From Halorubrum persicum (lineage in GTDB: Archaea; Halobacteriota; Halobacteria; Halobacteriales; Haloferacaceae): a DNA stretch of 41,141 bases. The stretch covers positions 1-41,141 of the forward strand of contig NZ_NHOA01000042.1 in the NCBI RefSeq assembly GCF_002727125.1. Reading direction: 5' to 3'. The translations under genes were made by a program, and so were the position numbers. The stretch's first letter is position 1. Each line of letters opens with the position of its first letter. The notes below the pieces were generated by a model. That model was not told the origin of the DNA, made no database searches, and was given only the letters and a program-made list of their open reading frames with translations. Below are positions 38,966 to 41,141 of the stretch, in pieces.

Positions 38966-39615
38966 CCGTCCGCGGCGCCCTTCGAGCCCGCCCGCCGACC
39001 CGGACGCAGAATCGACTCACGAGGGTGATGCAGGTCCTGCTGGTCGCCATCGTCGCCTACGGCGTCGCGTTCGGCCATCCGAAGGCGATCACTAACGGCG
39101 GACTCGGGCTGTTCGTCACGTTCGTGCCGGCGCTGGTCGAGCGCAACTACGACATTCCGCTCGATCCGTGGCTCGGCGTGTGGATCACGGCGGCGGTGTT
39201 CTTCCACACGCTCGGGTCGGCGTGGTTCTACGCGCAGATCGGCTGGTGGGACCACGTCACCCACGCGCTCTCAGCGTCGTTGGTCGCGGGCGCGGGATAC
39301 ACGACACTGCGCGCGATAGACATCCACAGCGACCGGATCCAGATACCCTCGCGTTTCGCCTTCGTGTTCATTTTCGTGGTGGTGCTCGCGTTCGGGGTCG
39401 TCTGGGAGCTGTTCGAGTTCACGCTCGACATCGTCGCCGACGAGACGGGGATCTCGATGCCGCTCGCCCAGTTCGGACTCGACGATACGGTACTCGACCT
39501 CATGTACAACTCCGCGGGAGCGCTGATCGTCGCGACCTTCGGACAGGCGTACCTCTCGGGCGTAGCAGCGCGAGTCCGCGAGGGGCTGTTCGGCCCGTCG
39601 GAGGAGCGACCCTAG
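38962..39615 (+). CDS. Membrane protein resembling the YjdF/DUF2238 family
   Basis: This 217-residue protein has about six helices: RVMQVLLVAIVAYGVAFGHP, NGGLGLFVTFVPALVE, LGVWITAAVFFHTLGSAWFY, LSASLVAGAGYTTLRAI, FAFVFIFVVVLAFGVVWELF and LDLMYNSAGALIVATFGQAY. The motif WWDHVTHALSASLVAG, with WELFEFTLD and DDTVLDLMYNSAGA later, is reminiscent of DUF2238/YjdF proteins, where Asp/His at one membrane face is conserved. Similarity is by eye only. It is translationally coupled to the preceding membrane protein by ATGA. Its TAG stop is shared, through CTAG, with the stop of the convergent ArsA-type gene. Confidence 0.72.
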   Translation: MTVRGALRARPPTRTQNRLTRVMQVLLVAIVAYGVAFGHPKAITNGGLGLFVTFVPALVERNYDIPLDPWLGVWITAAVFFHTLGSAWFYAQIGWWDHVTHALSASLVAGAGYTTLRAIDIHSDRIQIPSRFAFVFIFVVVLAFGVVWELFEFTLDIVADETGISMPLAQFGLDDTVLDLMYNSAGALIVATFGQAYLSGVAARVREGLFGPSEERP

Positions 39616-40784
39616 CGTAGACAGGCGGCAACGACCCGTAGCGCGGCCTCTCCGCGGACCTCCTTGGCGAGCAGCGGCACGCGCTTCACGTCGCGCCCGC
39701 GGAACAGGTCCGTGGCCCGACGCAGCGCGTCCTGCTGGACCTCCCACCGACGCGCACAGAACTCGCAGGTGTCCGGGTTCGGCTCGACGATCCAGTCGGG
39801 ATCGATCGCGGCCCCGCTCCCGTCGGTCACGTCGCCGACGCCCTCCATCACCCGATTGACCACGAGCGTGTTCACCGGAATCCCGAACTCGTCGAGGCGC
39901 GCGACGAGGCGCTCGGACTCGGCGACGCTCATCTCCTCGGGGATGGTTACCACGCGGAAGTCGGTCTTCGCGGGGTCCCGCAGCACGCTCCGGAGGCGCT
40001 CGATCCGCTCGCGGAGCTCGTCGAGGTCGGCGGAGGGGTCCGGCTCGTCCTCCCCGCCGCCGAACATCCCCTTGATCCCGTCCATCATCCCGGAGAAGCG
40101 GTTTCGGAGCTTCATCACGCGGCCGATCATCGAGTCCATGATCTCTGGGAGCTGGAGGAGCCGGAGGGTGTGTCCCGTCGGCGCGGTGTCGACGACGACC
40201 CGGTCGAACCGCGGATCGTCGAGGTACTCCAGCAGCTGGCGCATCGCGGCCGCCTCGTCGGCGCCGGGCATCGTTCCGCCGAGCAAAGAGCCGAGGCCGC
40301 CGTCGCCCTCGCCGTCCCCCGCGCCGCCCGCGCCGCCCATCATCCCGCCCATCGCGTCCCCCATCTCGCCCATTCCGCCCAGCGGGTCGCCGTCGGCACC
40401 GAACATCCCCTCCTCCATCGCGTCGTCGGGGTCGATCTCGGCGGCGTACAGGGGGATGTCCTCGCGGATGCGCGCCGGCTCGGCCGGGATCTCCGTCTCG
40501 TACGTGTCGGAGAGGGAGTGGGCCGGGTCGGTCGAGACCACGAGGGTGTTGACCCCGCCCGCCGCCGAGGCGAGCCCGGTCGCGGCCGCCATCGTCGTCT
40601 TCCCGACGCCGCCCTTCCCGCCGTAGAGGACGTAGTCCGGGGCGTCGACGCCCACCGGGAGGTCCGTGGCGGCGTCCGTCTCGGTCGGGAGCTCAGACTC
40701 GTCGCTCTCGGGATCTTTCTCGGCGTGTTCGTCGCGTTCCGGTTCCTCGACGCGATCCACCGGCTCGACGTCGATATCGTCCAT
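39612..40784 (-). CDS. ArsA/Get3-family ATPase
   Basis: This 390-residue cytoplasmic P-loop ATPase of the ArsA/Get3 (TRC40) family has an acidic leader (1-48), a deviant Walker A GGKGGVGKTT, switch I STDPAHSLSDTYETEI, switch II VVDTAPTGHTLRLLQLPE, NTLVVNRVM as the base-specific strand, and DTCEFCARRW with a CxxC. It has one ATPase domain, as in Get3, and no arsenite-site cysteine set, so tail-anchored-protein targeting is more likely than arsenite export. Two Met/Gly-rich segments (GGMGEMGDAMGGMMGGAGG and RFSGMMDGIKGMFGGG) lie where Get3 forms its hydrophobic client groove. No arsenic genes are near. The start at 40784 fits family members after the acidic leader. Confidence 0.9.
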   Translation of the reverse strand: MDDIDVEPVDRVEEPERDEHAEKDPESDESELPTETDAATDLPVGVDAPDYVLYGGKGGVGKTTMAAATGLASAAGGVNTLVVSTDPAHSLSDTYETEIPAEPARIREDIPLYAAEIDPDDAMEEGMFGADGDPLGGMGEMGDAMGGMMGGAGGAGDGEGDGGLGSLLGGTMPGADEAAAMRQLLEYLDDPRFDRVVVDTAPTGHTLRLLQLPEIMDSMIGRVMKLRNRFSGMMDGIKGMFGGGEDEPDPSADLDELRERIERLRSVLRDPAKTDFRVVTIPEEMSVAESERLVARLDEFGIPVNTLVVNRVMEGVGDVTDGSGAAIDPDWIVEPNPDTCEFCARRWEVQQDALRRATDLFRGRDVKRVPLLAKEVRGEAALRVVAACLR

Positions 40785-40944
40785 ACCGGGTCGTGGGCGC
40801 GGCCCGCTTGTGTACCCGTCGGTCCGGATACGAATGCATGTAGTGAGTGATTGGGCAATTCGGTGATTCGAGAGCGCGAGTGGACGGCGTGGCTACCGTC
40901 GATCGCCTATAAATCGGTGGTCATGGATCGGTGGTGGACTTCTC
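40785..40944. other. Non-coding gap upstream of the ArsA-type gene
   Basis: No gene is visible. CTATAAAT (40907-40914) is a TATA-like site readable on either strand. ATCGGTGGT is repeated directly at 40913-40921 and 40927-40935 (14-base period). The repeat element follows at once. A clear promoter for the ArsA-type gene about 27 bases before 40784 is not evident. Confidence 0.45.
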
Positions 40945-41055
40945 CAAAGCCCCAGCCGGGAGGCGGGCGCACGCTCGCTGCGCGCTTCAGTCGCTCGCGG
41001 TGCTCCTCCCTCCAGTGCTTACGTCGCCTGCGCCCGCCTCCCGCCTGCCCCTTTG
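40945..41055 (-). repeat. Dispersed repeat with 27-bp imperfect terminal inverted repeats
   Basis: Left arm 40945-40971 (CAAAGCCCCAGCCGGGAGGC, then GGGCGCA) and the reverse complement of the right arm 41029-41055 (CAAAGGGGCAGGCGGGAGGC, then GGGCGCA) agree at 23 of 27 positions. The four differences are all C/G swaps: CCC against GGG at one place and one further base. The 57-base spacer is pyrimidine-rich. Downstream to the window end the DNA remains C-rich without a gene. A short frame on the minus strand through this unit (40907-41089) gives a Trp/Cys/Arg-rich peptide and is not considered real. The same block order occurs at 1-45. This looks like a small MITE-like or structured-RNA repeat. 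Confidence 0.6.
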
Positions 41056-41141
41056 AGTCCCACCCGCCCGCACAGCACCACAACCTCACGCCTCCCCAGC
41101 CTCGCAGCCCACGGCTCGCGGCCTCCCCGCCCCCGTTCGCC

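Follow-up and report, generated by a model that had tools for sequence, protein, structure and literature searches.

Intergenic palindromes present at high copy number are familiar in bacteria, where ERIC, Correia (NEMIS), and BOX elements are 100-150 bp in length and sometimes carry promoters. The attC sites of integrons are folded single strands in which an unpaired central spacer lies between two helices, the inner part is variable, and one strand is the working one. REP/RAYT systems are defined by a Y1 partner and a GTAG/GTGG foot, and the only Y1 proteins found in archaea are those of the IS200 subclass (PMC6006769); a recent REP survey includes no haloarchaea. PATEs, MITEs, and SMRs have been described in Haloquadratum walsbyi (PMC3119063), and surveys of archaeal G-quadruplexes (PMC7565180, PMC12873603) give general motif counts, with neither naming Halorubrum or the repeat described here.

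This repeat lies at the right end of the window, the complete 41,141-nt Halorubrum persicum contig (G000:C10) that was analysed, which ends at 41141, 86 bases past the right arm. The two arms, at 40945-40974 and 41026-41055, match each other in inverted orientation at 83% over 30 nt, and none of 200 dinucleotide shuffles is as stable as the window hairpin (z -3.3). An earlier note on this DNA reported 27-base arms inverted at 23 of 27 positions with mismatches that are all C/G swaps; both statements are exact, and each of the four mismatches is a C facing a C on the + strand. Three of them (40950-40952 versus 41048-41050) are invariant in the family, and the fourth (40956/41044) is peculiar to the window copy, occurring in one of 118 copies at that position.

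The base of the hairpin is a helix in which CAAAG (40945-40949) pairs with CTTTG (41051-41055), followed by an internal loop in which CCC (40950-40952) faces CCC (41048-41050), and then by an inner stem (left arm 40953-40974, right arm 41026-41047). The inner stem is capped by a variable loop (40975-41025) that differs in length and sequence among copies and is inverted or carries insertions in some. On the - strand, the G-rich strand, the two CCC runs form a 3x3 internal loop of GGG facing GGG, and a second pair of G-tracts is present in the foot adjoining the right arm, AGTCCCACCC (41056-41065), which reads GGGTGGGACT on the G-rich strand. The segment GACTGAAAGGGG may resemble the G-string of archaeal origin boxes. 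The closest gene, on the - strand at 39612-40784, codes for an ArsA-family ATPase (PF02374, E 7e-78).

The arms lie where the earlier note placed them, but the element continues past them on both sides. Full Halorubrum units, as seen in G026, are ~330 bp and intergenic, and comprise a 57-nt tandem partial unit, a TATA box, the hairpin, a linker, and a second hairpin (hairpin 2). In the window a TATA-like box, CTATAAAT, is located upstream of the left arm (40907-40914, + strand) and is a putative promoter element, and a linker conserved in most Halorubrum copies, CCTCACGCCTCCCCAGCCTCG, is at 41084-41104 (+ strand). By comparison with complete copies, in which hairpin 2 ends GGCACGCGCCACCGC at a median of 137 nt past the right arm, the hairpin 2 region begins at 41105 and is interrupted by the contig end at 41141, which falls inside the downstream part of the unit. 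The same genome has about a dozen copies, of which L007, L008, and L010 are likewise at contig ends, and this suggests that the repeat breaks assemblies. In 35 of 73 Halorubrum copies a TTATAA is present at a single fixed site, ~38 nt ahead of AAAG, and some have an additional one 57 nt further upstream; in the window and in the G026 copies the fixed TATA box is often within 57-nt tandem partial units, and the predicted start corresponds to a conserved GAACACC. The loops of two copies (L066 and L011) and the linker of a third (L071) contain small inserted hairpins (GCCGGCGGC...GCCGCCGGC and GTGGCGCGTAGCGCCACG), which look like a second, smaller repeat family.

Conservation of the internal loop is evident from a search with NAAG-NNN-C[AG] ... 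[CT]G-NNN-CTTN, requiring at least 7/8 pairing of the inner stem and leaving both triplets unconstrained. The search gave 122 distinct hairpins: CCC/CCC in 118, the palindromic CCC/GGG in three, and GGG/GGG in one, which is the CCC/CCC form seen from the opposite orientation. Tip bases 1-3 and 7 are set by the search, so that evidence comes from the inner stem, the two triplets, and position 0 alone. In the foot both C-runs are kept in 100 of 116 copies, with a variable spacer of 1-2 nt, and the repeat has four runs of at least three Gs on one strand, as in a G-quadruplex motif. The proposal in the earlier note that the runs do not reflect decay is supported, as each is kept as a sequence, and a decayed transposon end is ruled out because the mismatch is invariant across copies. 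The fold it envisaged, with the runs left unpaired, corresponds to the invariant loop inside a covarying stem. Its further suggestion of selection on each arm holds for the runs, which are conserved as sequence, but not for two separate duplex protein-binding sites, which are unlikely given that the G-runs are separated by anything from ~2 to ~300 nt while the inner stems covary.

The covariation of the arms, for which the earlier note had proposed a check, is clear: the inner stem is 96.1% paired, compared with 63.1% (sd 1.3) when the arms are redistributed among copies, and compensatory changes are found between orthologues. At inner-stem position 13, for example, there are 61 C-G, 45 G-C, and 10 T-A pairs (99% paired), and the basal helix also covaries among 118 copies (C-G 95 and G-C 22 at one pair; A-T 107 and G-C 9 at another). 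Imperfect pairs are strongly asymmetric between the strands. At positions 8-17 of the local set there are 14 A.C oppositions, which are G.T wobbles on the - strand, and two G.T wobbles on the + strand, and at stem position 10 the summed counts over 52 Halorubrum genomes are 229 C.A (a few of these matches beginning in the upstream partial unit) and 13 T.G, a ratio that is not equivalent to a p-value because the copies share ancestry. Marginal base frequencies alone predict a ratio of ~1.5 to 1. Since the stem wobbles almost only on the G-rich strand, it is probably this strand that is functional or exposed; either its folding is selected, or it is the strand exposed to mutation.

Matches to the repeat are present in all 29 genomes of the genus Halorubrum searched, and the exact form AAAGCCCCA-N75-105-TGCCCCTTT is found at 1 to 134 copies per genome in 35 of 35 genus genomes (~1,480 summed), with no matches to a reversed control and 48 copies in one other genus (g20). 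Copies are thus many in related genomes and their arms are conserved as a unit, so the objection that the earlier note raised against itself, that related genomes might have no further copies or only copies with arms not conserved together, falls away.

The core extends well beyond Halorubrum. With one mismatch allowed, the right tip and flank, TGCCCCTTTSAGTCCCRCCC, is present in 67 of 116 genomes, and these represent 24 of the order's 45 genera, with zero matches to the reversed control; on the G-rich strand the tip with its flank is GGGYGGGACT. A collection scan with GGGYGGGACTGAAAGGGGC gave at least 80 loci, all of them haloarchaeal by title among the matches listed. Twenty regions from other genera, picked by the tip-and-foot motif only, contain 21 hairpins with a GGGGCTT partner; GGG faces GGG in 21 of 21 sites, and the inner stems are unrelated and nearly all well paired. 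When the partner is located by inner-stem complementarity alone, it has GGG in 64 of 74 cases and CTTTC in 62 of 74, and 17 additional sites have no inner partner, some of these being short forms or interrupted stems. Written for the G-rich (-) strand, the conserved core runs GGGYGGGACT-[SAAAG]-GGG-[C, inner stem-loop, G]-GGG-[CTTTS]. The earlier note identified the arms and did not extend to the G-tract pair beside the right arm, the strand asymmetry, or this order-wide distribution.

Miniature forms, in which the inner hairpin is short or missing and both G-runs are kept (spacer of at most 22 nt; GGGTGGGACTGAAAGGGGCCGGGGGCTTTC on the G-rich strand), are present in 29 of 194 genomes, spread over 16 genera, again with zero matches to a reversed control, indicating that the element can exchange its inner hairpin but not its G-tracts. 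One and the same 26-nt miniature, GGGACTGAAAGGGGCCGGGGGCTTTC, is present in several genera (G110:C1:2596087, G150, G156, G160, G192, and G050), and G050 has nine or so copies of a 28-nt sister. Genomes of genus g42 (loci L097, L098, and L180) contain convergent inverted motif pairs 43-46 bp apart, similar to REPINs and BIMEs.

The reading that we prefer, and in which we have about even confidence, is that the repeat represents a family of haloarchaeal intergenic DNA with a folded G-rich strand that is read by a protein, spreads in a non-autonomous, REP-like manner, and may form a quadruplex. We infer four steps, given here in falling order of support. The working form would be a folded single G-rich strand and not a duplex, this being the best supported of the four; a protein would read the fold through the G-tract module, the feet, and the basal helix rather than through the inner stem; copies would have spread as a non-autonomous REP-like element, now with slow turnover; and, least supported, the four G-tracts (GGG-Y-GGG and the two loop tracts) may assemble into a quadruplex that stacks on the basal helix and is favoured by the high intracellular potassium of halophiles (PMC12678505).

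The recognition module is plausibly a duplex-quadruplex, judging from the arrangement of the tracts. Our view of the broader proposal, that haloarchaea of the order share an undescribed duplex-quadruplex module recognised by a putative single-strand-acting protein under conditions in which potassium would stabilise quadruplexes unusually, is tentative and leans towards doubt. A quadruplex is the favoured prediction of folding software for two of four miniatures and for 27-40% of shuffles, and the miniature predictions, being no better than those for G-rich shuffles, are not computational proof of a quadruplex; the long third loop of the full hairpin is outside what the software can model. A search for a partner protein found none, with Y1 transposases neither bordering nor consistently accompanying the repeat.

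Helix covariation and tolerance of wobbles are typical of RNA, and a structured non-coding RNA or RNA element could be made from the G-rich strand or, in Halorubrum, from the C-rich strand by initiation at GAACACC, a possibility that the fixed TATA spacing and the conserved GAACACC at the would-be start favour. We nevertheless regard an RNA as unlikely, because the fixed TATA box reads the C-rich strand whereas the wobbles indicate the opposite one, for which no fixed promoter was seen, the TATA boxes past hairpin 2 varying in position. No TATA box was seen in the other-genus copies examined, and Rfam gave no match either at the gathering threshold (window) or at E values up to 1 (40870-41141). 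The orientation of the repeat relative to neighbouring genes is also random, with 23 versus 17 in other genera and a mixture in G026, using gene calls from a codon-usage script and not an annotation pipeline. A role as a 5' leader of neighbouring genes was rejected, as the co-direction seen in a first set is gone in a larger one.

Copies at equivalent positions in different species speak to a second alternative. Thirteen species have the element at one site upstream of the arsA-like gene, which is vacant in most other species examined, and in two genomes (G016 and G021) the copy at this site has a compensated basal pair, CGAAG/CTTCG. In L077, at the same site in G017, the outer tips are oriented as in other species, and the loop and inner stem between them are inverted. 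Over 400 kb of synteny at 89% identity, nine of 12 copies in G004 are shared with G008 with exact tips, and of the remaining three copies one is shared with a compensatory change in a basal pair, another is missing, and the third is beyond the syntenic region; exact-tip searches are biased towards conserved copies, and this comparison guards against that bias. Multiple compensatory changes separate the inner stems of orthologues, as in GGGAGGGCAACGC/GCGTTGCCCTCCC versus GCGAGGATGGCGC/GCGCCATCCTCGC. Sharing of this type, together with a core conserved across the order and a near restriction to chromosomes, would fit a site that serves the host, for instance through nucleoid organisation, replication, or repair proteins, and that is selected at many places without being mobile. 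This too seems improbable, and we rank it after an RNA, because copy number varies from 0 to more than 100 among relatives with lineage-specific amplification, many genomes have none, and one genome contains a set of near-identical copies.

These five copies (L152-L156 in G012) are ~433 bp, have inverted ends, CGGGAGTAGG...ACTCACTCCCG, and mostly sit in a GATCGATAG/CTATCGATC context; judged by their sequences, they are a recent burst. The inverted ends are not common to the family, and both are found at three sites in all. An ordinary transposon end is not supported, as neither terminal inverted repeats nor target duplications were seen as a general feature of the copies; the flanking duplications that the earlier note had proposed to map were not seen at five sites compared between G004 and G008, none of which offered a clean empty site. 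Entire intergenic blocks are different there, so that no target duplication is readable. A mobile, non-autonomous origin is still probable, although near absence from plasmids and phages is unusual for an active mobile element: the plasmid and phage collections gave four plasmid records, in a search of limited sensitivity for a short, divergent repeat, and no phage, and a scan of viral contigs for GGGYGGGACTGAAAGGGGC gave one match.

Neutral palindrome mechanics could in principle account for both the pairing and the mismatch, with template switching alone maintaining inner-stem complementarity, gene conversion spreading an ancestral mismatch, and the loop being unselected. Some orthologous copies have identical interiors and different flanks, as at the arsA site of G004 and G008, and a fully palindromic form at 11 loci in 52 Halorubrum genomes indicates that palindrome perfecting occurs yet is not kept. 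We consider this very unlikely, as perfecting should erase the internal loop, which is retained in more than 99% of copies, conversion is implausible both as a process that fixes short tips and spares the adjoining inner stem and between genera with unrelated stems, and the two strands would not be expected to differ in their wobbles. The least probable explanation is a PATE or other IS200/IS605 derivative, for although the palindromes, small size, and apparent lack of target duplication and of general inverted ends fit the published description (PMC3119063), no full hairpin and only two half motifs lie within twenty 6-kb regions surrounding Y1 transposase genes, Y1 (PF01797) is missing in seven of 29 genus genomes including the copy-rich G018, G027, G016, and G005, and the core stands alone in other genera.

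If the preferred reading of a folded, protein-read G-rich strand is correct, haloarchaea share, across the order, a family of structured repeats absent from the RNA library and the papers searched, and the existence of a protein that recognises them is implied. The hundreds of natural variants would allow the rules of G-tract structure in a potassium-rich cell to be read, and quadruplex function in vivo would become directly testable in archaea. It would also explain why Halorubrum genomes contain many intergenic palindromes without annotation and, probably, why some of their contigs break.

Among the known systems, ERIC, Correia (NEMIS), and BOX elements are alike in being high-copy intergenic palindromes, although we know of no conserved G-tract loop in them and of no sequence resemblance to the repeat. 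The likeness to attC sites is by analogy only, in the single-strand fold, unpaired centre, and variable inner part, whereas no extrahelical bases or GTT/AAC core are seen in the repeat, which is dispersed singly and not in cassette arrays. It shares four G-runs on one strand with G-quadruplex motifs, with short loops in the miniatures, but differs in holding two of the tracts opposite each other in a covarying stem. Like PATEs, MITEs, and SMRs, it is a short non-coding haloarchaeal repeat with palindromes and apparently no general target duplication; unlike them it is not linked to IS200/IS605 genes and has no general inverted ends, and its class-wide core sequence is unmentioned in PMC3119063. 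A PATE or IS200/IS605 assignment was rejected as the palindromes are not shared with IS200/IS605 in the Y1 regions, and MITE membership was rejected as terminal inverted repeats, expected to match a transposon, are seen in the G012 copies only.

Searches by sequence and by topic found no published description of the repeat, with most subscription journals outside the search and an earlier description possible. The repeat appears to be a haloarchaeal hairpin element without description in the literature searched, REP-like in anatomy but lacking defining features of REP/RAYT systems, PATEs, and MITEs. REP/RAYT membership was rejected on the defining features, as there is no resident RAYT (the Y1 family being absent from some genus genomes, as above) and the foot is GGGYGGGACT, not GTAG/GTGG; the 3x3 G-tract loop, the second G-tract pair, and a longer, fully variable inner stem are further differences. 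The dispersal of high-copy intergenic hairpins seen in REP/RAYT systems is nonetheless matched by the exact copy numbers in Halorubrum, and the conserved foot, the conserved unpaired place in the stem, the inverted pairs in g42 genomes, and the random orientation to genes are all shared with REPs, BIMEs, and REPINs. The repeat thus resembles REP hairpins in anatomy and, by analogy, perhaps in its mode of recognition.
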